A stretch of 64,000 bases of DNA, from NCBI RefSeq assembly GCF_028816475.1, contig NZ_CP118247.1, positions 1,240,001-1,304,000 on the forward strand. The letters are read 5' to 3'. Position 1 is the first letter of the stretch. Each line of letters opens with the position of its first letter. The translations under genes and the position numbers were made by a program. The notes beneath the pieces were generated by a model. That model made no database searches and was not told the origin of the DNA. It was given only the letters and a program-made list of their open reading frames with translations. This document shows, piece after piece, positions 5,438 through 36,167 of this stretch. This stretch comes from Devosia rhodophyticola. GTDB lineage: Bacteria > Pseudomonadota > Alphaproteobacteria > Rhizobiales > Devosiaceae.

Positions 5438-6609
5438 GCGACATTGTCATCGTCAGTGCGGCGCGAACGCCCGTCGGCTCCTTCATGGGGAGCCTTTCCA
5501 CCATTTCGGCCGTGTCGCTGGGCAGCACGGCCATCCGGGCAGCAATGGAACGCGCCGAAGTAGACGGCAACGAAATCGACGAGATCATCATGGGTCAGGT
5601 GCTCGCTGCGGGTCTCGGACAAAACCCGGCGCGGCAAGCGGCAGTTGGCGCCGGCATTGATCAGGGTGCGACCGCTTGGGGCGTCAATCAGGTTTGTGGG
5701 TCCGGTTTGCGGGCTGTAGCGCTAGGCATGCAGCAAATTGCCATGGGTGATGCGAAAATCATTGTGGCGGGCGGTCAGGAATCCATGTCCCTGGCGCCGC
5801 ACTGCCAGCAGTTACGGGCACCGGCAAAAATGGGGCCGGTGACATTGGTCGACACGATGATGGTCGACGGACTGGTCGATGCCTTTGGTGGTTACCATAT
5901 GGGCATCACCGCCGAAAATGTCGCCCGGCAGTTCGGCATTGATCGTGACACGCAGGACAGTTTTGCGCTGGCGTCCCAGCAAAAGGCGGCCACCGCACAG
6001 AGGGCAGGGCATTTCGACAGCGAGATCACCCCGGTCATCGTCAAATCCCGCAAGGGCGATATTGTGGTCGACAAGGATGAATATATCCGCGCCGATGCCA
6101 GTGCAGACGCACTGGCGCGCTTGCGCCCGGCCTTTAACAAGGAAGGCACTGTAACTGCGGGCAATGCTTCGGGGATCAATGACGGGGCTGCTGCATTGGT
6201 TTTGATGCATGCTGATGAAGCGGCGCGGCGCAATCTGAGGCCGTTGGCCCGCATCGCCTCCTGGGCAACCGCAGGCGTTGACCCGTCGATCATGGGCACC
6301 GGACCAATCCCCGCCTCGACAAAGGCGCTGGCCAAGGCTGGCTGGCGCGTTCAAGAACTTGACCTGATCGAGGCCAACGAAGCCTTTGCGGCACAGGCAT
6401 GCGCTGTCAATCAGGCGATGGGCTGGGATCTGGACAAGGTCAATGTCAATGGCGGCGCCATTGCCATCGGGCATCCGATCGGTGCTTCGGGTGCGCGGGT
6501 GCTGATAACATTGCTGCATGAAATGATGCGGCGCGACGTCACCAAGGGTCTGGCTACGTTGTGCATTGGTGGTGGGATGGGCGTAGCGCTCTGCGTTGAG
6601 CGAGGATGA
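5434..6609 (+). CDS. acetyl-CoA acetyltransferase (acetoacetyl-CoA thiolase)
   Basis: This 391-residue biosynthetic/degradative thiolase splits acetoacetyl-CoA to two acetyl-CoA, or condenses them. The acyl-accepting Cys88 is in [11 protein letters not shown]. The other active-site blocks are [24 protein letters not shown] and the C-terminal [11 protein letters not shown]. The start ATG 5434 overlaps the scoB stop. A longer in-frame reading from 5353 only covers scoB. The GHPIGASG block fits the AtoB/PhbA type, not the 3-oxoadipyl-CoA thiolase type. No phaB or phaC is nearby, so catabolism of acetoacetate is the likelier role. Confidence 0.94.
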
Positions 6610-6614
6610 AGCGG

Positions 6615-6635
6615 GCGGGGCCAAGTCGGCCCCGC
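6615..6635. terminator. GC-rich hairpin between convergent thiolase and curlin genes
   Basis: The arms GCGGGGCC (6615-6622) and GGCCCCGC (6628-6635) pair perfectly around a five-base loop, just after the thiolase stop. No T-run follows on either strand, so it may act as a bidirectional or Rho-assisted end. Confidence 0.45.
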
Positions 6636-6651
6636 GCAAACTGGTTCTTAA

Positions 6652-7068
6652 TCAGAAACCAAAGACCGTGGTAACGCTGGACTGGTTGTTGCCGGTCTGG
6701 GCACATTGAGCGTTGGTATTTTCACCAAACTGGAACAGACCGCAGCTGTTGTTGTTGCCGTCCTGATTGATGGTACCGGTGTGCCCGTCCCCTTCCTGCA
6801 CGACTAACCCATGATTGCCAGAGCCATTCTGGGCGATACCAGCGGCGTTGAAATTGCCATTCTGGCTGACATCAGCGCCCTGCCCCGAAAGGCCTTTGAC
6901 GATCGAAAACATCTGCAATCCCATGCCCAATGCCTCTGCCTGTTCTGGATCGCTCGGTGCAAAGCTGATGGATACCTGGCCACCAGCGGTGGCGGGTGCG
7001 ATTGTGGCGAGGCCCGCGGTCCCTATGGTGAGGGCGAGAACGGCGGCGGTGGCAAATTTCTTGATCAT
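6652..7068 (-). CDS. curlin-repeat protein (curli subunit-like)
   Basis: The 138-residue secreted protein starts at ATG 7066-7068 behind AGGAGA. A signal peptide (MIKKFATAAVLALTIGTAG, ending near APATAG) is followed by a non-repeat stretch, then several imperfect curlin repeats with Gln-x-Gly-x-x-Asn spacing (SQNGNFN, AQNGSGN, NQDGNNN, AQTGNNQ). It ends in an aromatic-rich VFGF. Two cysteines lie within the repeats. Curlin proteins polymerise outside the cell as amyloid fibres. Its lower repeat number and distinct N-terminal region suggest a nucleator or minor subunit (CsgB-like), but CsgA/CsgB assignment is not secure. A terminator separates it from csgH upstream. Confidence 0.82.
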   Translation of the reverse strand: MIKKFATAAVLALTIGTAGLATIAPATAGGQVSISFAPSDPEQAEALGMGLQMFSIVKGLSGQGADVSQNGNFNAAGIAQNGSGNHGLVVQEGDGHTGTINQDGNNNSCGLFQFGENTNAQCAQTGNNQSSVTTVFGF

Positions 7069-7204
7069 GATATTTCTCCTGGCTGTCTGGTTTGGCGCTG
7101 GAGTGTTCCAGCCGATAAAAGGAGATTGCGCTTTCAGGCCTGAACCAAATCGGAGCCATATATTCATCTTTGGTTCAGTGTTTGAGCGAGGGCGGGCGCG
7201 CAGT

Positions 7205-7228
7205 AAAAAGGGCCCCGCAAGGGAGCCC
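7205..7228 (-). terminator. Rho-independent terminator after csgH
   Basis: On the minus strand GGGCTCC (7222-7228) pairs with GGGGCCC (7210-7216, one G-U pair) and is followed by TTTTT (7205-7209). It lies between csgH and the second curlin gene, suggesting that the latter has its own promoter or relies on read-through. Confidence 0.7.
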
Positions 7229-7253
7229 CGTTCAGTTGTTGGTCTGGCCGATG

Positions 7254-7646
7254 TCAGCGCAGTTTATTGGCGTCGGCGGTGCAATCGATTGTGGCGCCGT
7301 TGGCCGAAATCTCGAAGTCGACCTTGGTGCTGGCATTGGCATTTAGGCTGACTCGGCCGAGCACCACATCCTCGTTGGCGCGAACGGAAAAGCCGCCGCC
7401 CTGATTGATATTGGAGCGACCCGATGGTCCCGAACTGACGATACTGAGACGATAGGTCCCTGAAAGATCGGTCGGCGACAACAGCCGCGCTTCCATGGCA
7501 ACGGAACCGTTGTTGGCATCACTGATCAGCCCACAGCGCAGGTGATCGGCATTGGCGGTATCGGCCTGCCCGCTGGTAACCGCAAAGCCAAGGATGGCCA
7601 TTCCGGCAAGGGCGGGCAAGGCGAGACGCGTATTGAATTTGGTCAT
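7254..7646 (-). CDS. csgH: CsgH-like curli assembly/inhibitor protein
   Basis: The 130-residue protein starts at ATG 7644-7646 behind an AGGAGA site and has a signal peptide ending near residue 30. The mature part has the pattern of alphaproteobacterial CsgH: a cysteine near the start (LRCGLISD), a Gly-Ser-Tyr/Ser beta-strand region, SNINQGGGFSV, and a second cysteine near the end (IDCTAD). CsgH is a periplasmic beta-sandwich protein that prevents premature polymerisation of curli subunits. It lies between two curlin genes on the same strand, which fits that role. Confidence 0.8.
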   Translation of the reverse strand: MTKFNTRLALPALAGMAILGFAVTSGQADTANADHLRCGLISDANNGSVAMEARLLSPTDLSGTYRLSIVSSGPSGRSNINQGGGFSVRANEDVVLGRVSLNANASTKVDFEISANGATIDCTADANKLR

Positions 7647-7730
7647 CGTATTATCTCCTGACTTGGATGGCCGGGCGATGAGCCGAGAGGCCAGGCCTCC
7701 CGGCTGATGGATATTCATTGCTATTGCGGA

Positions 7731-8165
7731 TCAAGGGCAAGCCTGAACGAACGCCGAGACATTACCAACGCCGTGCTGCTCGACATCGGCGCTACAGCCG
7801 TTACCGACCTGAACGCCGGCTGCAACATTGCCGTTCCCATCCTGGCTCAGAACCGAGGTGTGGTTGTCACCAAACTGGCCAACGCCGGCCTGGTTGAAAT
7901 TACCATTCTGGTTGGTTTCGCCATAGTTGTTAAATCCGTCCTGGCCGATAGCACCAGTATTATGATTGCCATTCTGTTGGCCAACTGCCTGATTGAAGGC
8001 GCCGTTCTGGAAGATGCCGAGTTGGTTGTCTACACCGATCTGGGCACCGCCAGCGGCATTGCCGAAGCCGGACTGATTGAGGAAGACGCTGTTCGCCATG
8101 GCGGGGGCGGCGCTGATGGCCAAGATGGCGGCGAGGGCGGTGGTGATGATGATATTGCGGGTCAT
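7731..8165 (-). CDS. curlin-repeat protein (CsgA-like major subunit candidate)
   Basis: The 144-residue protein has a classic signal peptide (residues 1 to about 24, ending APAMA) and then almost nothing but curlin repeats. There are roughly ten strand units with Q-x-G-x-x-N (for example FQNGAFN, GQNGNHN-type and TNQNGNFN). Asn, Gln and Gly dominate and charge is low, as expected of an amyloid-forming surface fibre. Two cysteines lie near the C-terminus. AGGAGA precedes the ATG. It is the first gene of the csg cluster, 84 bases upstream of csgH. The secretion genes csgE, csgF and csgG are not in the window. Confidence 0.85.
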   Translation of the reverse strand: MTRNIIITTALAAILAISAAPAMANSVFLNQSGFGNAAGGAQIGVDNQLGIFQNGAFNQAVGQQNGNHNTGAIGQDGFNNYGETNQNGNFNQAGVGQFGDNHTSVLSQDGNGNVAAGVQVGNGCSADVEQHGVGNVSAFVQACP

Positions 8166-8278
8166 TTTTCTCTCCTGATTGCGGCTGGGTCCCAGTGACC
8201 TTTGTTGCCGATGTCAGGAGGAATAGCGCAGCTCGTCAGAACCGGGCCTGAACCCGAAATTCAGACTCCGTTCACCAA

Positions 8279-8302
8279 CCGGGCGGCGCCATGTCCGCCC
8301 GG
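8279..8302 (-). terminator. hairpin downstream of the TRAP transporter operon
   Basis: CCGGGCGG (8279-8286) and CCGCCCGG (8295-8302) form a perfect eight-base stem eight bases beyond the dctM stop. No T-run follows, so it is a weak terminator or an mRNA-end stabiliser. Confidence 0.45.
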
Positions 8303-8309
8303 CAAGAGA

Positions 8310-9906
8310 TTAGCGTCCGATGATGATTTCGGGGCCCATGAGCGCATAGGGGACCATGGTCGAGAGCGCGGGCAAATAAGTGACCAGCACAAGAAAGGCC
8401 ATCAGAACAACCACGAATGGCAGCGCCGCCTTGACTACCTGGGCAAGGCTCATGCCGGTTATCCCTGAAGTCACGAACAGGTTGAGCCCGATCGGCGGAG
8501 TGACCATGCCGATCTCCATATTGACCACCATAATGATGCCCAGATGTATGGGATCAATCCCCAGTTCCATGGCTATCGGAAACACGACCGGCGCGACGAT
8601 CAACAAGAGGCCTGACGGTTCCATGAACTGACCGCCGATCAGCAGGAGAACATTGACCGCAATCAGGAAAGTAAACCAGTTGAAACCGGCGCCCAGCATC
8701 CATTCGGTAATGGTCTGGGGTATGCGTTCTGCGGTGAGGGTATGAGCAAACAGCAGTGCGTTGACGATGATGAACATCAGCATCACCGTGGTCTTGGCGC
8801 TATCGACCATGACCTTCTTGGTGTCGCGGTGGAACAGGGCGGGCGCAAATCGACGCACGATCAGGCCGAGATTGTAGCGCCATACCGAAAGGCCAGCGAC
8901 AAACGTCAAAGGGCTGGGTTGATTGCGCAGATAGGGGTAACCGATCAGTACGACAAGCGCCATCAGGCCGCCGATCTGGCCGCGGGTTTCATTGCCGAGA
9001 CCACCGAGGAAAAAAACGAGGATATCGTCCAGACGAAAAAAGCCGCCAGCGCATAAACCGAGGCCTTGAAGCCAACAATTGTGCGCTCGGGGCTGCCCTC
9101 GGGCACCCAGGCCAGACCTTTTAGTGGCCCCATGTCGCGATAGACAAACAGCGCTACGAAGGCCGAATAGACGGCGGCAACCGAGGCCGCTTCGGTCGGC
9201 GTAAATGCACCACCATAGATGCCGCCGATGATGATGAATATCAAGAACAGGCCCCAACCAGCGTCTTTACCCGCCGCAACGACTTCACCAAATCCCTGCC
9301 AGGGCTCAGACGGCAGATTGCGACGACGTGCCACCACATAGATCGCAATCATCAGCATCAGGCCAGCGACCAGACCTGGCACGATGCCGGCAAGGAACAT
9401 GCGGCCGACCGAGACATTTGTGGCGGCGGCGTAGACGACCATGACGATGGAGGGGGGATAAGAATGCCCAGGGTTCCCGCGTTGGCGATGATGCCGGCGG
9501 AAAATTCGCGCGAATAGCCGACCTGGCGCATGGCCGCGATGGCGATGGTGCCGATGGCGACGACCGTGGCGGGGGACGAACCTGAAAGCGCAGCAAACAG
9601 CATGCACGCCAGCACTGACGCCATGGCCAGACCACCGCGAAAGTGGCCGACGCTGGCCACTGCCAGCCGGATGATGCGTCGCGCCACCCCACCGGTCGAC
9701 ATGAAGGTGGAAGCCAGCACGAAAAAGGGGATAGCCAGGAGGGTATAATTTTGTGAAGCCGAGAAAAGCTGCAGGGCAACCGAGGACATGCTGTCGCTGG
9801 AAAACAGTGCAATTGTGAGCACACTCGACAGCCCAAGTGCTACCGCGATGGGCACGCCGAGGAACAGAAGAGTTAACACCATGATGAAGAGAATGATGGA
9901 TTCCAT
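8310..9906 (-). pseudogene. dctM: TRAP transporter large permease (DctM), interrupted by two frameshifts
   Basis: This is the 12-helix-type large subunit of a TRAP transporter, which carries dicarboxylate-type substrates across the inner membrane with sodium. Reading starts at ATG 9904-9906 and is normal through AGTLGILIPP. The frame is lost at a C6 run (9452-9457 on the plus strand as G6); one extra C would give the expected IPPSIVMVVYAAATNVSVGRM. A second break is at a T7 run (9010-9016 as A7); one extra T would join SSFF to FLGGLGNETRG. With both restored the protein is about 532 residues and ends PYALMGPEIIIGR. Both breaks are homopolymer losses in a gene whose partners are intact, so sequencing error is likely. 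Confidence 0.85.
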
Positions 9907-9910
9907 GGTG

Positions 9911-10585
9911 TCAGTCCTTCACCGCGTTCTTGTTTTCAGCGACGAGGTCTTCAGCTTCATGGCTGGCAATGATGTATTGCCGATTGCCGCGGGCGATATT
10001 GATGGCGGCTTGCAGGCTGCGATACATAAAGAGGGCCAGACCAATCGGCAGGATCAGGTAGGCAATCCATCGCTGCACACGCTCCTGCAGGCCAAAACTG
10101 TTCTGGGCCCAATCTGGATAGCGCAGATCATCCAGACCAATTCCGACCTTGAACATCTTGGACCAGTAATCGAGAGCGCCGCCTCTGGCGTTGATGCCGA
10201 AGAGCTGCAGCCAGTCGGCATAGAGCAGGATGAGTGCATAGAGAACGCAGGCCAGCGCCGCGACCACGGCGAGAATGCGCGAGGTGCGTTGGGGTACCAG
10301 TTGCAAAACGATATCGACGCCGAGGTGCGAATTGATCTTGATGGCGTAGCTCATGCCAAAAAGAATCAGCCAGGCAAACAGGATGCGGGTAAATTCGAGC
10401 GCGCCGCCCCAGCCACCCGAAAAGCCATAGCGCATTACGACCTGGGTAAATGAAACCAGCGTCAATGCGGCCATCAAGATGGCCAGCATACCCTCCTCAA
10501 AGCGGGTGACAGCCGATGGCCAGCGGCGCTCGATCAGGAACAGTGCCACAAGCAGCACGGCAATGATAATCAGCATCTGCGTCAT
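9911..10585 (-). CDS. dctQ: TRAP transporter small permease (DctQ)
   Basis: The 224-residue four-helix small membrane subunit pairs with DctM. Hydrophobic segments are visible near residues 3-20, 35-55, 75-95 and 125-150, plus one near 185. The motif WGGALEFTRILFAWLILFGMSYA is typical of the family. An ATG at 10583-10585 with a GGGGG stretch upstream is preferred over a TTG four codons earlier. It lies four bases before dctM and behind the hairpin that follows dctP, the usual P-Q-M arrangement. Confidence 0.9.
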   Translation of the reverse strand: MTQMLIIIAVLLVALFLIERRWPSAVTRFEEGMLAILMAALTLVSFTQVVMRYGFSGGWGGALEFTRILFAWLILFGMSYAIKINSHLGVDIVLQLVPQRTSRILAVVAALACVLYALILLYADWLQLFGINARGGALDYWSKMFKVGIGLDDLRYPDWAQNSFGLQERVQRWIAYLILPIGLALFMYRSLQAAINIARGNRQYIIASHEAEDLVAENKNAVKD

Positions 10586-10616
10586 TGGTGCCCCCAACGC
10601 CCGTATTGGCCAGTCG

Positions 10617-10643
10617 AAAACCCGGCGCCGCTAAGGCGCCGGG
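10617..10643 (-). terminator. attenuating hairpin between dctP and dctQ
   Basis: CCCGGCGCC and GGCGCCGGG (10635-10643 and 10621-10629, minus-strand order) form a perfect nine-base stem followed by TTTT. It sits just after the binding-protein gene. It probably lets dctP be made in excess over the membrane subunits. Confidence 0.65.
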
Positions 10644-10651
10644 AACAGGGC

Positions 10652-11653
10652 TTATTTGGTGTTGGCGGCAACCGCTGCAGCGATATTGTCGGCGCCGATG
10701 TCATCCTCGAACTGGGTCCAGACGGGCTTCATTGCATCGACCCATGCCTGACGCTGTTCGGGGGTCAGTTCGCGAATGGTACCGCCGGCATCAAGAATAT
10801 TCTGGCGGTTCCTGGCTTCCTGCTCGGCCACCGAAGCGTTGGCGGTCACTGTCACTTCTTGGGCGATCTTGAGGAACTGATCGCGCACGGCAGGATCGAG
10901 TCCATCAAGCCATTCGGTCGAGGTGACCAGAAGATAGGCCAGCAGCTGATGATTGGTTTCGGTAATGCCGTCCTGAACTTCAAAGAACTTTTGGGTGTAG
11001 ATGTTGGACCAGGAGTTTTCCTGACCATCGACAACCTTGGTCTGCAGAGCGCCATAAACTTCAGAGAATGCCAATTTCTGAGCTGAACCACCCATGGCAT
11101 TGATCATGGCTTCAGCCACATCGGAAGTCTGGATGCGGAATTTCAGACCCGCCCCATCCGAGGGCAACAGCAATGGCTTGTTGGCAGAAAACTGCTTGAG
11201 CCCTGAGGACCAGTATCCCAGCCCGGTGTAGCCAACATCCTGAGTGGCCAACAGCAGATCCTTGGCTTCAGGGGTGTCAAAGAAGCGGGAAACCGAATCG
11301 AGATCGGCGAACAGGAATGGTAGATCAAACAGGCGATATTTGAGGGTATAGGCTTCAAACTTGGCCAATGACGGAGCCGCCAGTTGCACGTCACCCAGCA
11401 ATAGGGCTTCCATTACCTTGTCGTCGTCGAACAGAGTGGAATTGGGGAACACTTCCATGCAGGCGATGCCGTTCATTTCCTTATTGACGCGCTCGGCAAA
11501 CAAGGTTGCCGCGTCACCCTTTGGATGACCGCTGGCGGCAACCACATGGCTGAACTTGATGACCATTTCGCCATCGTCGCACTGGGCCATTGCCGCTGGT
11601 GCGCTCAGGGCCATGGCACCGATGGCGATGGCGGTTGCGATGATCTTTTTCAT
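10652..11653 (-). CDS. dctP: TRAP transporter substrate-binding protein (DctP)
   Basis: This 333-residue periplasmic binding protein has a signal peptide (MKKIIATAIAIGAMALSAPA, cleavage after AMA near residue 22). Its DctP-family features are KFSHVVAASGHPKG near the N-terminus, the conserved arginine in LKFRIQTSDVAEAMI that binds the substrate carboxylate, and GQENSWSNIYTQKFFEVQ. A GGGAGAGA site precedes ATG 11651-11653; an earlier in-frame start would bury the signal peptide. The partner DctB/DctD genes suggest C4-dicarboxylates such as succinate, malate or fumarate. Exact substrate is inferred. Confidence 0.93.
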   Translation of the reverse strand: MKKIIATAIAIGAMALSAPAAMAQCDDGEMVIKFSHVVAASGHPKGDAATLFAERVNKEMNGIACMEVFPNSTLFDDDKVMEALLLGDVQLAAPSLAKFEAYTLKYRLFDLPFLFADLDSVSRFFDTPEAKDLLLATQDVGYTGLGYWSSGLKQFSANKPLLLPSDGAGLKFRIQTSDVAEAMINAMGGSAQKLAFSEVYGALQTKVVDGQENSWSNIYTQKFFEVQDGITETNHQLLAYLLVTSTEWLDGLDPAVRDQFLKIAQEVTVTANASVAEQEARNRQNILDAGGTIRELTPEQRQAWVDAMKPVWTQFEDDIGADNIAAAVAANTK

Positions 11654-30032: not shown

Positions 30033-30057
30033 GGCGTCCTGCGGGGCGCCTGTTTTT
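30033..30057 (+). terminator. Rho-independent terminator of gcrA
   Basis: GGCGTCC (30033-30039) pairs with GGGCGCC (30044-30050) around a four-base loop, with one G-U pair, and is followed by TGTTTTT. It overlaps the end of the convergent LacI gene by two bases. Confidence 0.75.
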
Positions 30058-31126
30058 ATGGGGGATCGGAAAATTCGAAATCGGGATGCTCCAGATGTTG
30101 CAGCGTGTCGGCAGGTTCACCGTTGATCAGGCGTAACAGCAAAAGACCGAGACGTTCGCCAGCAGCAGTGAAGTCCTCGAACACGGTTTCAGCGTCCGGG
30201 CGGAACTGGGTAAAAAGCGGGGAGGACTGTTTGGTGACGACAAAGCAGTTTTGCCCGACCACAAGACCGCTTTCGGTGAGACCGGCAAGGACGGAGAGCG
30301 CTGAAACTTCACTGCAGCAGACAAACCCATCAGGGGCATCGGGGCGGCGGCGCCGACGGATGACGTAGTCGCGAATGGCGTCGGCGGAGCTGTCCAGATT
30401 GACGTCGGCGGCAACTTCCCAGGCAAGCCCGGCCTCGGCAGCAGCCGTTTCCAAGCCGTTGCGCAAATGCTGGCTATAGGTGAGCGAACTATCAGGCAGG
30501 ACGATAGAGACTTTGGTGGCGCCGCGTTCGGCCAGACGTTGAACTGCCCTTTGGGCAAAGGCCTGATTGTCAAAATCGACATAAGCGTGCTGCTCAGGCC
30601 AATCGGTGCGCCCGTGAGTGATGAAAGGGAAATTGTATTCCTGCAGGAATTTCACGCGCTCATCAAACGGCTCGGTCTTGGAAAAAACCACGCCATCGGC
30701 AAGACGATTATGCACGATATGGCGGATGGGCTCGATGGGCGCGATGTTGCGGAAATGGGGGGTCACCACCAGGTGGTAGGTGGTATCGCGCATGGCGAGC
30801 GACAGCCCATTGACCAGTGAAGCGCCAAAGCCAAAGATTTCCTCGTCCGGGGCCAGGACCAATGTGATGACATTGGTGCGGCCGGTCTTGAGCCTTAACG
30901 CCGTGCGATCGGGAACATAGCCGATTTCGGCGGCAATCTTTTGAATGCGGTCGCGGGTTTCCTGGGCCAGTTCAGGGGCGTTATTGAGCGCCCGGGAGAT
31001 GGTGGTGGTGGCAAGCCCGGTCATTTGAGCGATGGTTTTCAGTGTTGGCCGACCGGATGGCTTGGCGCCGCGCCTGGGGCGCGGTGCGGTTTCATTTTCT
31101 GTCACGCCACTCGATCTCCCAAACAA
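30056..31126 (-). CDS. LacI-family transcriptional regulator
   Basis: The 356-residue protein has a LacI helix-turn-helix near residues 27-75 (LKTIAQMTGLATTTISRALNNAPELAQETRDRI, then the hinge NALRLKTGR-like segment) and a periplasmic-binding-protein fold for a sugar ligand. The overall pattern (VLAPDEEIFGFGASLVNGLS) is like AglR-type regulators of alpha-glucoside uptake in rhizobia. No sugar transporter is adjacent, so its target is unknown. The first ~25 residues are polar and a later start is possible. TGGAAACGATAACA on the minus strand at 31142-31155, just upstream, has the CG-centred form of a LacI operator and could serve self-control. Confidence 0.85.
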   Translation of the reverse strand: MFGRSSGVTENETAPRPRRGAKPSGRPTLKTIAQMTGLATTTISRALNNAPELAQETRDRIQKIAAEIGYVPDRTALRLKTGRTNVITLVLAPDEEIFGFGASLVNGLSLAMRDTTYHLVVTPHFRNIAPIEPIRHIVHNRLADGVVFSKTEPFDERVKFLQEYNFPFITHGRTDWPEQHAYVDFDNQAFAQRAVQRLAERGATKVSIVLPDSSLTYSQHLRNGLETAAAEAGLAWEVAADVNLDSSADAIRDYVIRRRRRPDAPDGFVCCSEVSALSVLAGLTESGLVVGQNCFVVTKQSSPLFTQFRPDAETVFEDFTAAGERLGLLLLRLINGEPADTLQHLEHPDFEFSDPP

Positions 31127-32388: not shown

Positions 32389-32961
32389 TCAGGCAGAATG
32401 GTGATCCGCGACCTGGCGCAGAGCCAGAACCAACCGGGTAATTCCAAAGGTTGGCGTGCCCGAATTATCAATGACAATGGGCACCACATCGTCGGGTAGC
32501 GGTCGGGTTTCGCGGGCCAACCGCGCGGCGATCTGCGCATGATCCTCGCGGCCGCGCCCGGCCAGGCGCTTGGCACGCAGCGAAATTTCGGCGGTGATCA
32601 GCATGACCACACAGCGAGGGAAGGTCGTGATGGCCTGCGGCAAGGTTTGTCGCGATCCATTGGCAATGACCACCTTGCCCAAAGCCAGATCAGTGTTGAC
32701 GCTGAGCGGCAGGCCATAGCGCAAGCCATGGGCCTGCCAGGAAAAGGCCAACCGCCCTGCCTCTTCGAGTTCCCTGAAGCCAGCCTCATCAAGCGTTTCG
32801 TGATCCTCAAGCGTCTGATCGGCGGGGCGGGTCACAAGACGCCTGGCAAAACTAAAGCGCCTGTCGGCAACGAGCGCGTCGCGGGCACCATTGATCAAGG
32901 TATCCTTGCCGGCGCCCGAAGCACCGACAATAAGCACCAATGTCCCCGGCTCCTGCCCCAT
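32389..32961 (-). CDS. phnN: ribose 1,5-bisphosphate phosphokinase
   Basis: PhnN converts ribose 1,5-bisphosphate to PRPP, the last step after C-P lyase cleavage of phosphonates. The 190-residue P-loop kinase has GASGAGKDTL near residue 13, then RRLVTRPADQTLEDHETL and the guanylate-kinase-like SWQAHGLRYGLP. It starts two bases after the phnM stop and the two overlap functionally in the same operon. The C-P lyase genes phnGHIJKL are not here. Confidence 0.92.
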   Translation of the reverse strand: MGQEPGTLVLIVGASGAGKDTLINGARDALVADRRFSFARRLVTRPADQTLEDHETLDEAGFRELEEAGRLAFSWQAHGLRYGLPLSVNTDLALGKVVIANGSRQTLPQAITTFPRCVVMLITAEISLRAKRLAGRGREDHAQIAARLARETRPLPDDVVPIVIDNSGTPTFGITRLVLALRQVADHHSA

Positions 32962-32963
32962 AC

Positions 32964-34103
32964 TCAGCTAACCCGTCTGCCCTGTCGCCAGACGCCGCGC
33001 ACCACAGGCATACCGTCAATAACCCGTACCCGCACCAAGTCGGCTCGTTTGCCGACAGCGATTTCGCCCCGGTCCACTAGCCCTGCCGCCTGGGCGGGGT
33101 TGGCAGTAACCATTGCCAGCGCAGCGGGCAGGCTCATGTCCTCGACCCGCGATGGCAAAAGGAACGCAGCCTGCAACAGGGCAAAGGGCACATAGTCGGA
33201 GCTAAGCACATCCAGAAGCCCGGCCCGCACCAGATCGGTGGCCGAAACATTGCCCGAATGGGAGCCACCGCGCACCACGTTTGGCGCGCCCATCAAAATG
33301 GCGAGACCAGCATCATGGGCGGCGGCGGCCGCCTCCAGCGTCGTGGGAAATTCGGCAATGGCAACGCCGTCGCCAACCGCCTGCTCGACATGGGCCAGAT
33401 TGGCATCGTCATGACTGGCCAGTGCCAACCCCAGTTCGGCGGCGCGACGCACAATAGCGGCCCGGTTGGGCGCAGAATAGCGCTTGTGTTCGGCCTGCCG
33501 GGCATCAAGATATCGGTTTAGTTCCGCTTCGGTGCGGCCCATCTTGTCCTTGTAAAAGCGCCGATAATCATCAAGCGACTGAAACTGGCGCTGGCCCGGG
33601 GTGTGGTCCATGACCGAGGCCAGCCGGGTCAGATCGTGATCGACATAGGCCTCGAATTGCTCGAGCACATCGTGGCTGGGCAATTCGCAGCGCAAATGGA
33701 TGAAATGATCGACGCGCAGCCGGTCCTGATCGCGGCCGGTGCGAATGGCGTTGACCAGACGCTCCACGTGCACCCCCATATCGGGCAGATCGACATCAGA
33801 GCCAATGCGCACTGCATCGAAAACGGTGGTGATACCGGAGGCGGCAATCTGGCCATCATGGGCCTGTAGCGCCGCCATTGGATCCCAGAAGACGCCCGGT
33901 CGGGGGCGATAGTGATTTTCCAGATGGTCGGTATGCAATTCGACCAGGCCGGGAATGAGAAAGTCGCCTTCCAGATCAAAACCGTGGGTGCCGACACCGG
34001 CACCCAAAACATCAATCATGCCGTTTTCCAGACCAAGCCCGCCTTCGATTACGGTGTCGGCGGTAACAATGCGGGCGTTGTAAAAAGCAGTTTCAGTTGG
34101 CAT
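32964..34103 (-). CDS. phnM: alpha-D-ribose 1-methylphosphonate 5-triphosphate diphosphatase
   Basis: PhnM removes pyrophosphate from ribose 1-methylphosphonate 5-triphosphate in phosphonate degradation. The 379-residue amidohydrolase has the metal motif VELHTDHLENHYRPRPGV, DHFIHLRCELPSHD, LASHDDANLAHV and GSSHSGN-like GGSHSGNVSATDL, with SSDYVPFALL near the end. Its start shares one base with the DUF1045 stop (TGATG). Length is normal for the family. It is the middle gene of a three-gene set. Confidence 0.94.
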   Translation of the reverse strand: MPTETAFYNARIVTADTVIEGGLGLENGMIDVLGAGVGTHGFDLEGDFLIPGLVELHTDHLENHYRPRPGVFWDPMAALQAHDGQIAASGITTVFDAVRIGSDVDLPDMGVHVERLVNAIRTGRDQDRLRVDHFIHLRCELPSHDVLEQFEAYVDHDLTRLASVMDHTPGQRQFQSLDDYRRFYKDKMGRTEAELNRYLDARQAEHKRYSAPNRAAIVRRAAELGLALASHDDANLAHVEQAVGDGVAIAEFPTTLEAAAAAHDAGLAILMGAPNVVRGGSHSGNVSATDLVRAGLLDVLSSDYVPFALLQAAFLLPSRVEDMSLPAALAMVTANPAQAAGLVDRGEIAVGKRADLVRVRVIDGMPVVRGVWRQGRRVS

Positions 34104-34798
34104 CAGTTAGCGCCCTGGAGTGGAAAATCGGCAATACGGGTGAACATGCTGCCGCTGTCGGCTTCGTGGTAAAGCGCCAACCGATCCAACTGCAGTGGGG
34201 CTTCGAGCTCGGGGGCAAACCAGGTGTTGGCGGCGGCGGCAATATCAGCTCGCTCGGCGGGGGCAAGTCTGTCGGTCAGGGTCATGTGAAACTGAAATTC
34301 TTCAAAGGCATATGGATAGCCATAGGCGTCGAGCAGTTCCTCCTGACGCGGGGTCAGGCCATCGGCAAGCCGCGCGGCGCGGACCTTGTTGGTAAGGGGG
34401 GCGCGAAAGATTTCAAACTGCTCAACGACGGTGGCGGCAAAATCCTTGATGGCCTCGTCAGGATCGGTAGGCACCAGCGCCAGAAAGCCGGACAGATCGC
34501 CAATTTGCAGCCGACCAAGATCGACAGGGGCGTAGGTTTTGGCAAACCGCTCCAACGCTGCCTGCAAATCGGCGCGGGTTGCTCCCGAAGCCAGCGCCAT
34601 CGGGGCCTTGATGGTGGCATGAAAGCCGTAGCGGCTGGCGGATTGGGTCAGGTTCAACAGGCGGTTGCGGTCAATTCCGGCGACCGGCCCATCGTGGCGT
34701 TCCTTGTTTGCAGGGTCGCGCCCCAACCAGCTTGCCGCGCGGTCCCAAAGCGGATGAGTGGTGGCTGGCGCATAGTAAATTGCGAAACGTTCCGGCAT
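34103..34798 (-). CDS. DUF1045 (2H phosphoesterase-like) phosphonate-operon protein
   Basis: The 231-residue protein belongs to the DUF1045 group found beside phosphonate genes. It has two His-x-Thr/Ser-type motifs of 2H phosphoesterases (YGFHATIKAP near residue 60 and EFQFHMTLTDRL near 175). MPERFAIYYAPA is the usual start and an earlier Met is four codons upstream. It is first in DUF1045-phnM-phnN. The family is thought to process cyclic phosphodiester by-products, but that is not proven here. Confidence 0.88.
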   Translation of the reverse strand: MPERFAIYYAPATTHPLWDRAASWLGRDPANKERHDGPVAGIDRNRLLNLTQSASRYGFHATIKAPMALASGATRADLQAALERFAKTYAPVDLGRLQIGDLSGFLALVPTDPDEAIKDFAATVVEQFEIFRAPLTNKVRAARLADGLTPRQEELLDAYGYPYAFEEFQFHMTLTDRLAPAERADIAAAANTWFAPELEAPLQLDRLALYHEADSGSMFTRIADFPLQGAN

Positions 34799-34913
34799 AG
34801 ATACCCCCAAGAGCGCAGCCCTATCTTACGCTCATGTCAGATTTTTGACGACTGGACAGCCACGAACGGCATAGCCAAAGTGGCACTAAAACACGAGAGC
34901 GCTAAGAAAATTT

Positions 34914-36167
34914 ATGGATCGCCCCCTACTCCAAGAGCTGTTTAGTCACGCCGTTGCCATGGCCCAACCAAGCCTTGGGGTCAAAACAAATCTGCCGCCA
35001 CAGCCCAGAGGCCGGACAGTCGTTATTGGTGCCGGCAAGGCTTCAGCCCAGATGGCACGGGCGTTTGAAATGGCCTGGGATGGTCCGATCACCGGACTGG
35101 TTGTGACCCGTTATGGGTATGCCGAGGCCTGCGAGCGCATTGAAATTGTCGAGGCGGCCCACCCTGTGCCCGACGAAGCAGGATTTCTGGCGGCGCGGCG
35201 AATCATGGAACAGGTTTCGGGGCTCGGGCCGGATGATCTGGTGGTGGCGCTGATTTCAGGCGGCGGATCATCGCTGCTGCCAGCACCCGCCCCGGGACTG
35301 ACACTGGCCGACGAGCAGGCGATCAACCAGTCGCTGTTGGCTTCGGGCGCTCCCATTTCAGTCATGAATCTGGTTCGCAACCAGTTTTCCACCATCAAGG
35401 GGGGACGGCTGGCCCAGCAGGCGGCACCCGCACGCGTTGCAACGCTCGTGGTTTCGGATGTGCCGGGGGATGATCCGGCAGTCGTGGCATCGGGCCCAAC
35501 CATTGCCCAAAGTGGAGATCGGGCACTGGCGCGCAAGTATGTTGAGCTTTACGGGCTTGACCTGCCTGTGCCAGCAGCGCGCATCCTGGCTGGCGAGGAC
35601 AATCTGGCGCCAACGGCGGGCGATCCGCTGTTTGACAATCACAGCGTGCGCACCATCGCCTCGGCAGCGCTTTCCCTGTCGCAGGCGGCCAATCTGGCGC
35701 GACAAAGGGGAATTGAAGCGGCGATCCTGTCGGATTCTATTGAAGGGGAAGCGCGCGACGTCGCACAGGTTCATGCGGCCATGGCGCGCGAGGTCAGCCT
35801 GCGCAATCAGCCTTTTGCCAAGCCAGTTGTCTTGTTGTCGGGCGGTGAAACCACGGTAACGCTGCGCGGCAAGGGCCGCGGCGGGCGCAATGGCGAATTC
35901 CTGTTGTCGCTGGCCATCGGGCTTGACGGCACCAGCGGGATTACCGCGTTGGCTGCCGATACGGACGGGATCGACGGGTCCGAGGACAATGCAGGGGCGT
36001 TCGTTGATGGCCAGAGCGCCAACCGGATGCGGGCGGCCGGCATTGATCCGCTGGCGGCGTTGGCCAATAATGATGCCTACTCAGCATTTGCCGCGATCGG
36101 CGACCTTCTGATCACCGGGCCGACCGGTACCAATGTCAATGATTTCCGCGCGATCATCATTCGATAG
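34914..36167 (+). CDS. glycerate 2-kinase (MOFRL family)
   Basis: The 417-residue enzyme phosphorylates D-glycerate to 2-phosphoglycerate. It has the two-domain MOFRL form: an N-terminal part with VVIGAGKASAQMARAFE and LISGGGSSLLPAPAPGLTL, and a C-terminal MOFRL part with LLSGGETTVTLRGKGRGGRNGEFLLSLA and ADTDGIDGSEDNAGAFVD. Homologues are named TtuD or GckA. It starts 115 bases from the divergent DUF1045 gene and is followed nine bases later by a VOC protein. A role in sugar-acid or glyoxylate/serine metabolism is likely. Confidence 0.93.
   Translation: MDRPLLQELFSHAVAMAQPSLGVKTNLPPQPRGRTVVIGAGKASAQMARAFEMAWDGPITGLVVTRYGYAEACERIEIVEAAHPVPDEAGFLAARRIMEQVSGLGPDDLVVALISGGGSSLLPAPAPGLTLADEQAINQSLLASGAPISVMNLVRNQFSTIKGGRLAQQAAPARVATLVVSDVPGDDPAVVASGPTIAQSGDRALARKYVELYGLDLPVPAARILAGEDNLAPTAGDPLFDNHSVRTIASAALSLSQAANLARQRGIEAAILSDSIEGEARDVAQVHAAMAREVSLRNQPFAKPVVLLSGGETTVTLRGKGRGGRNGEFLLSLAIGLDGTSGITALAADTDGIDGSEDNAGAFVDGQSANRMRAAGIDPLAALANNDAYSAFAAIGDLLITGPTGTNVNDFRAIIIR

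Follow-up and report, generated by a model that had tools for sequence, protein, structure and literature searches.

An intact DUF1045-phnM-phnN trio without a detected C-P lyase core in Devosia rhodophyticola, and its possible role in phosphoribosyl recycling

Introduction

Can genes of phosphonate breakdown have work to do in a genome in which the C-P lyase core (phnGHIJKL) is not found? The question is raised by a stretch of 64,000 nucleotides of Devosia rhodophyticola (the window; positions 1,240,001-1,304,000 of a genome of one contig and 3,474,928 bases, completeness given as 93.44 percent), in which phnM, phnN and a gene of the DUF1045 family lie intact one after another on the minus strand (34798-32389). 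The trio was initially annotated as standing without the C-P lyase core, and this was confirmed by a six-frame search of the whole genome, in which PhnI and PhnJ each gave 0 matches. Since the trio is under purifying selection in genomes without PhnJ, and since trios free of C-P lyase occur elsewhere in the order, a function independent of C-P lyase is favoured here as rather probable.

The trio in the D. rhodophyticola genome

The three genes of the trio are as follows.

32389-32961, minus strand: phnN, 190 amino acids, by family a ribose 1,5-bisphosphate phosphokinase that forms 5-phosphoribosyl 1-diphosphate (PRPP)
32964-34103, minus strand: phnM, 379 amino acids, by family a ribosyl-5-triphosphate diphosphohydrolase of the amidohydrolase superfamily
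34103-34798, minus strand: DUF1045, a 2H phosphoesterase, putative phosphoribosyl cyclic phosphodiesterase

Transcription would run DUF1045, phnM, phnN; the first two share 1 base and the last two are 2 bases apart. PhnN belongs to its curated family (TIGR02322, 182.4 bits against a cut-off of 156) and so does PhnM (NF011983, 557.7 bits against 486; TIGR02318, 491.1 against 390.55), while DUF1045 lies barely above the cut-off of TIGR03223 (251.0 against 248.95 bits) and matches Pfam PF06299 with 175.8 bits against 24.3. The longest DUF1045 open reading frame (ORF) begins with TTG at position 34810; its likely start is the ATG at 34798, which would give MPERFAIY. The operon-conserved columns of the alignments are kept at 25 of 25 positions in PhnN and at 61 of 62 in PhnM (T to N at 235, with all conserved H, D and E retained). 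DUF1045 keeps 38 of 42, the changes being P58A, R59S, F71M and V168A, the first three of which are also present in nearly all Devosia trios.

The same PhnJ and PhnI searches gave matches in Escherichia coli, and each of them found 56 genomes in a set of 101, the two lists being identical; PhnG, PhnH, PhnK and PhnL lay outside this hidden Markov model (HMM) search. PhnP was not detected in the D. rhodophyticola genome, its two partial matches (26 and 21 bits) being below the cut-off of 272.25. A phnGHIJKL set in another operon, named beforehand as the result that would count against the initial annotation, did not emerge from the PhnI and PhnJ search of this genome. As judged by the presence of PhnJ and PhnI, a functional C-P lyase pathway is not found in D. 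rhodophyticola.

Among named relatives, the DUF1045 protein is closest to that of Devosia algicola (82 percent identity), with mostly other Devosia next, and D. algicola is the sister of D. rhodophyticola on the flanking-gene tree. Comparison of the 17-kb D. algicola stretch carrying phnGHIJKL with the D. rhodophyticola genome revealed that both flanks match (1,118,228-1,123,633 and 1,123,848-1,127,588), with otherwise only pieces of 50-109 bases. The D. algicola core is a block of 7.8 kb that D. rhodophyticola lacks in its entirety; the two core-flanking genes adjoin in D. rhodophyticola and no phn remnant was found. None of 15 other core loci examined had the genes that flank the block, and either a gain in D. 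algicola or a loss in the D. rhodophyticola lineage may account for the difference.

The trio locus in the genus

The genus group comprises 61 genomes, one per species, and the DUF1045 locus was read in 59 of them, the window included; G017 and G053 were not fully read, G053 being outside the 59. The genes typically run gfo, gckA (divergent), DUF1045, phnM, phnN, a small protein and lacI, and the neighbours in the window are the following.

34914-36167, plus strand: glycerate 2-kinase-like gene (gckA), divergent, marking the syntenic locus; Pfam DUF4147 256 bits, MOFRL 135.5 bits
32175-32321, minus strand: small protein of 48 amino acids, 3' of phnN, with one likely membrane span (ORF reading)
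30056-31126, minus strand: LacI-type regulator (Pfam LacI and Peripla_BP_3), by synteny usually after the trio

gckA was detected at 57 of the 59 loci and the small protein at 53 (tblastn with the window ORF). The locus is common to Devosia with and without PhnJ, 18 loci coming from PhnJ-less and 41 from PhnJ-positive genomes. All 18 PhnJ-less loci carry a full-length DUF1045, 16 carry phnM, 16 phnN and 15 all three; phnM is absent from G052, phnN from G041 and both from G040. In G052 DUF1045 and phnN lie side by side, and no phnM passed the cut-off in the whole genome (best E value 1.8e-8). The PhnJ-less status of G040 and G041 is doubtful, given their fragmentation and the presence of other phn genes on small contigs (G040, 370 contigs; G041, 55 percent complete; likewise G017, 62 percent complete); both were counted among the 18 and excluded from the comparison of conserved columns. 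Among the 41 PhnJ-positive loci, 35 have all three genes near full length, while phnN is missing from G006, G035 and G038 and phnM from G028, G049 lies at a contig edge and G025 (D. algicola) has split genes.

The split or frame-changed genes of D. algicola (L202, L241) comprise several at the trio locus, among them lacI, gcrA and dppA, and the GntR-like gene of the core, which suggests assembly errors. In the 2.0-Mb genome G053 (L182, G053:C76), pieces of phnM with stops were seen at a contig end and no DUF1045 match was found; it is perhaps a natural case of trio decay.

Selection on the trio

Ratios of nonsynonymous to synonymous substitution (dN/dS) were calculated by the Nei-Gojobori method. 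Nine PhnJ-less pairs gave 0.102-0.156 for phnM, 0.076-0.208 for phnN and 0.122-0.411 for DUF1045 at dS of 0.65-1.5, values at dS near 1 being rough, and seven PhnJ-positive pairs gave 0.071-0.173, 0.076-0.219 and 0.099-0.147, respectively. The nine pairs share species; five lie inside clades wholly without PhnJ (four among G013, G019, G033 and G043, plus G050-G057), and the path between the members of the other four passes relatives that carry a second type of PhnJ. Rates at the tips, relative to the flanking genes, were compared in the 47 genomes with all five genes near full length (14 PhnJ-less, 33 PhnJ-positive), and no difference was seen for phnM (medians 1.29 vs 1.56, p 0.35) or phnN (1.26 vs 1.11, p 0.32). 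The operon-conserved columns were kept in PhnJ-less Devosia at 98.5 percent in PhnM (14 proteins, 62 columns), 97.3 percent in PhnN (15 proteins, 25 columns) and 91.5 percent in DUF1045 (14 proteins, 42 columns), and in PhnJ-positive trios at 99.0, 95.1 and 91.1 percent.

These values bear on the explanation that the trio is a decaying relic, the tail of a recently lost core that has still to be removed. Such a history would agree with the core of the sister species D. algicola and its lack in D. rhodophyticola, with a mild acceleration of DUF1045 (described below), with losses inside the trio (phnN in G006, G035 and G038; phnM in G028 and G052) and with the stop-bearing pieces in G053. Against this, G006, G035 and G038 have DUF1045, phnM and phnN beside their C-P lyase core, and all three genes are full length at 15 of 18 PhnJ-less loci. 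Because dN/dS is low in PhnJ-less pairs even at dS of 0.65-1.5 and the catalytic columns are kept, the trios do not appear to be decaying relics; this explanation is disfavoured for the genus and considered improbable.

Phylogeny of the trio and of C-P lyase

Devosia and Maritalea both belong to the Devosiaceae, order Hyphomicrobiales, and three Maritalea genomes carry a single run phnG-I-J-K-L-DUF1045-phnM-phnN. Quick trees of 126 of the 139 distinct PhnM proteins showed that 68 Devosia trio proteins and the 3 Maritalea proteins formed one group, with a support of 99 in the Shimodaira-Hasegawa-like approximate likelihood-ratio test (SH-aLRT), within which the Devosia trio without Maritalea was supported only at 43; PhnM from the C-P lyase operons of Devosia fell into a separate group (support 91). 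It follows from these groups that the trio is kin to the old operon tail of the family, by common descent with the operon PhnM of Maritalea as read from sequence, and that the phnM of most main-clade cores read is of other descent. In the PhnJ tree the usual Devosia cores formed one group (support 96).

The trio resembles the C-P lyase pathways of E. coli (phnCDEFGHIJKLMNOP) and of alphaproteobacteria (phnGHIJKL-DUF1045-phnM-phnN) in its families, in the order of the operon tail and in the grouping of its PhnM with that of Maritalea, while differing from them in that the D. rhodophyticola genome gave no PhnI or PhnJ match and the trio locus is found genus-wide regardless of a core. We propose that the trio is the tail of the family's former C-P lyase operon, whose order would still be seen in Maritalea; in the Devosia line the tail would have moved to its own locus beside the glycerate kinase gene and been inherited there, with C-P lyase cores coming and going at other loci and none found in D. 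rhodophyticola. Identities, synteny, descent and selection can be read from the sequences themselves, and the gene identities and the history of the trio are regarded as highly probable.

C-P lyase cores in relatives

The initial annotation had also suggested that the core might be split off elsewhere in the genome. This did not hold for D. rhodophyticola, by its lack of PhnI and PhnJ matches, and is what was seen in relatives. The D. algicola core comprises phnG, phnH, phnI, phnJ, phnK-like and phnL frames together with GntR-like, chloride-channel (Pfam) and MarR-like genes, and sits between a nitronate monooxygenase gene (Pfam) and one that reads like a chromate transporter. Neither phnM, phnN nor DUF1045 turned up in that stretch, and the sole PhnM over the cut-off in this genome is the trio copy. 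Core loci of six distant PhnJ-positive Devosia were read as well. In four of these, over 18-19 kb each, none of phnM, phnN and DUF1045 was found; L257 had a phnM at a distance of about 8 kb, and L258, a contig of 4.2 kb, carries little information. As judged from the core loci, in species with such tail-less cores the trio probably serves the C-P lyase from afar. Among ten main-clade core loci, phnM and phnN were both present in L179, L180, L243, L261, L262, L263 and L265, phnM alone in L244, and neither in L241 and L259.

In the main rival explanation the trio would be a set of standby parts for a mobile C-P lyase, whose cores are gained and lost so often that the parts are used often enough to be kept, with no second function. 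It is favoured by the lack of tail genes beside the core in D. algicola and at four of the six distant loci, and by the D. algicola core being a block missing as a whole from D. rhodophyticola. The tree built from two flanking genes demands no fewer than 10 changes in the presence of PhnJ of any type, and C-P lyases of a second type occur here and there in the genus. On the other hand, that same tree (54 genomes) contains a clade of four species (G019, G033, G043 and G013) all without PhnJ, with constrained trios; other genera of the order have PhnJ-less genomes as well (g40 and g34, below); and the trio copies would be spare where cores have their own phnM and phnN (seven of ten main-clade loci) or phnM (one). 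The standby explanation is given a substantial minority share of our belief.

The second, divergent type of PhnJ (about 365-379 bits) was present in 18 of the 61 genus genomes, two of the matches being partial. One locus of this type (L181, G026:C1:3376000-3394000) has its own phnI, phnK, phnL and phnM at 5581-11360. A third kind of C-P lyase was observed in L261 (G059:C11:45000-64000) at 7129-11339, its PhnJ being 52 percent identical to the usual Devosia PhnJ.

Survey of the order Hyphomicrobiales

Among 297 genomes of the order, DUF1045 was matched in 220 (219 over the cut-off) and PhnJ in 176; 175 genomes had both, 45 DUF1045 alone and 1 PhnJ alone. These counts indicate that DUF1045 and PhnJ are strongly coupled, as the standby explanation would have it, and that the exceptions are almost only DUF1045 without PhnJ. 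Of the 45 PhnJ-less matches, 30 had E values of 2e-47 or better; the other 15 were weaker and may represent another subfamily. Loci were read for 25 of the 42 PhnJ-less genomes outside the genus, and the whole trio was found in 9, a DUF1045-phnM pair in 10 and DUF1045 alone in 6, where alone means within the stretch read and one of the six is a 6.9-kb contig. All four DUF1045-bearing genomes of genus g40 carried the trio without PhnJ. In genus g34, 11 of 12 DUF1045-bearing genomes were without PhnJ, and phnM adjoined DUF1045 in all seven loci read. A further 25 genomes were reached through 25 of 26 DUF1045 loci (L135 was left out); PhnJ was found in 21 and not in the other four, two of which (L122, L125) carried the trio and two (L123, L132) DUF1045 and phnM.

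The constraint on the Devosia trios and these C-P-lyase-free trios favour the suggestion of the initial annotation that the genes may serve another source of ribose bisphosphate or cyclic phosphate. An independent role in phosphoribosyl recycling, taken as a whole, stands evenly balanced in our judgement. The broader proposal that PhnM, DUF1045 and often PhnN constitute a stand-alone module of phosphoribosyl repair or salvage across the Hyphomicrobiales, into which C-P lyase cores plug and in which PhnM would act on a non-phosphonate substrate, falls slightly short of that balance.

In the g34 loci (L266-L271, L230), a gamma-glutamyltranspeptidase gene (Pfam) was observed upstream in L270, with relatives at the other six.

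Predicted structure and chemistry

The DUF1045 model (mean predicted local distance difference test score, pLDDT, 97.0) has a predicted 2H fold, and the motifs H64-x-T66 and H175-x-T177 (numbered from the TTG start) are nearly invariant in 59 DUF1045 proteins; with two HxT motifs in the predicted fold the protein can be assigned to the 2H phosphoesterases. The model aligned with YjcG (2d4g; Z 15.0, root-mean-square deviation (rmsd) 3.2, 165 aligned residues), with the Arabidopsis cyclic phosphodiesterase (1jh6; Z 13.3, rmsd 4.4, 173 aligned) and with E. coli LigT (Z 12.7, rmsd 3.8, 170 aligned). Sequence searches of solved structures gave none for DUF1045; PhnM matched amidohydrolases and PhnN guanylate kinases, in both cases only weakly.

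The likeness to the plant phosphodiesterase, which acts on ADP-ribose cyclic phosphate, would suit a route in which the trio processes the ADP-ribose 1,2-cyclic phosphate (ADP, adenosine diphosphate) released when KptA/Tpt1 takes the 2'-phosphate off RNA: ring opening by DUF1045, pyrophosphate splitting by PhnM and PRPP formation by PhnN would fit as three steps. Disposal linked to KptA was rejected, PF01885 giving 0 matches in D. rhodophyticola and being matched in 1 of the 61 genus genomes, and this route is held to be very improbable.

PhnI makes ribosyl 1-phosphonate 5-triphosphate, the compound on which PhnM would be expected to act. PRPP decays to 5-phosphoribosyl 1,2-cyclic phosphate, a candidate feed for the trio. 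The order of the pathway is PhnI, PhnM, PhnJ, PhnP and PhnN in PMC3463581, and DUF1045/RcsF has been proposed (PMC8235418, PMC3840354) to take the place of PhnP in opening the phosphoribosyl cyclic phosphate. Where PhnI and PhnJ are lacking, the two final steps might be fed with a compound that arises in some other way. For the reactions in D. rhodophyticola, the source of the substrate and the role of PhnM, we infer a scheme in which DUF1045 would open 5-phosphoribosyl 1,2-cyclic phosphate to ribose 1,5-bisphosphate, PhnN would phosphorylate this to PRPP, and PhnM would cut a related ribosyl compound back from its 5-triphosphate to the monophosphate. PRPP and nucleoside triphosphates, through their breakdown or side products, would be the likely feed. 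This specific PRPP-salvage chemistry is put forward tentatively. G052, with DUF1045 and phnN and no phnM, fits a salvage of cyclic phosphate; g34, with no phnN nearby, fits it less well.

In genus g40 an ATP-binding cassette (ABC) importer ATPase gene is divergent from the trio at all four loci, with an inositol-phosphatase-like gene between. The binding protein scored 234.8 bits against phnS2, below the cut-off of 392.75, and found 4r72 (321.5 bits), which with its sister entries we take to be the sugar-phosphate binder AfuA, and a pyridoxal-phosphate-binding protein (267.9 bits). These neighbours, which also speak for a role independent of C-P lyase, would suit a trio whose substrate is imported, either a phosphorylated sugar or a nucleotide, and bears a cyclic phosphate. 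However, the Devosia locus showed no importer of this kind, the g40 importer passes no curated phosphonate-transport cut-off, and adjacency in one genus may reflect shared descent; the import explanation is considered unlikely.

Several observations weigh against a role independent of C-P lyase. We know of no substrate for PhnM without PhnI. DUF1045 is tied to PhnJ in the order, 175 of the 176 PhnJ genomes carrying it, and in genus g44, of the same family, three of the four listed genomes are without both. The DUF1045 tips are faster in PhnJ-less genomes (median 2.03 vs 1.61, p 0.009, a value uncorrected for kinship and for three tests), and this acceleration, like the higher dN/dS, is what mild relaxation would give. 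No phnN was found near the g34 pair in the seven loci read, nor over the cut-off in G093, the one genome searched as a whole, and the PRPP step would thus not be part of that pair as far as its sequence tells. The Maritalea core was not placed beside those of Devosia in the PhnJ tree (support 21), so that a joint history of core and tail is tentative. In Phaeobacter (PMC10132767), phosphate stress raises DUF1045 and PhnM along with PhnI, PhnJ and PhnL, which is what one would expect of phosphonate use.

Relation to published work

In 2003 Hove-Jensen reportedly described a role of PhnN outside phosphonate breakdown, in the biosynthesis of nicotinamide adenine dinucleotide (NAD) in E. coli; that host has a C-P lyase, whereas in D. 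rhodophyticola such an outside role could be the sole one. The DUF1045/RcsF of PMC8235418 and PMC3840354 is similar to the protein of the window in both HxT motifs, the predicted 2H fold and the adjoining phnM, and different in that it sits in C-P lyase clusters, with its activity proposed, while here it is kept without PhnI or PhnJ. A marine survey (PMC9381506) describes organisms with two phnM copies, one of them outside the operon; a phnM outside an operon is shared with the trio, and the second copy is the difference. Of 27 Devosia genomes, alkylphosphonate degradation was widespread and three strains lacked it, in a section of PMC6981132 that contains no orphan trio. A literature search, with most subscription papers outside its scope, gave no report of the trio kept without C-P lyase, and a search with narrow terms gave nothing on PRPP breakdown or on phnM without phnJ.

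In genome and metagenome surveys, phnM (PMC9381506) and phnM with phnN (PMC3840354) serve as markers of phosphonate use; if the trio is indeed conserved without C-P lyase, such marker counts would be misleading. PhnM and DUF1045 would also gain a cellular role, open to testing in strains in which it is not obscured by the breakdown of phosphonates.

Upstream region

The space between the trio and gckA was analysed for Pho control.

34799-34913, no strand: intergenic DUF1045/glycerate kinase space, carrying TCGTCAAAAATCTGACAT at about 34834-34851

The pattern used, CTGTCAT-N4-CTGTCAT, is presumably that of the Pho box. The window element TCGTCAAAAATCTGACAT (34834-34851) has 4 mismatches to it, and 6 of 100 shuffles were as good. 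Upstream of DUF1045 at the 59 loci 3 to 6 mismatches were found, with at most 5 of 100 shuffles as good in 11 loci and more elsewhere; a general Pho box upstream of DUF1045 was unsupported by the shuffles, and the best ones occurred in genomes with and without PhnJ. In many Devosia, PhnJ-positive and PhnJ-less alike, a recurring TGTCAAA...GACA element stood there instead, about 42 bases before the DUF1045 match. At the two loci without detected gckA (G004, G060) the best hit was a different one, and the element was also missing at some gckA loci; the gene it serves may be that of the divergent glycerate kinase. The LacI-type regulator is at most a candidate controller of the trio.

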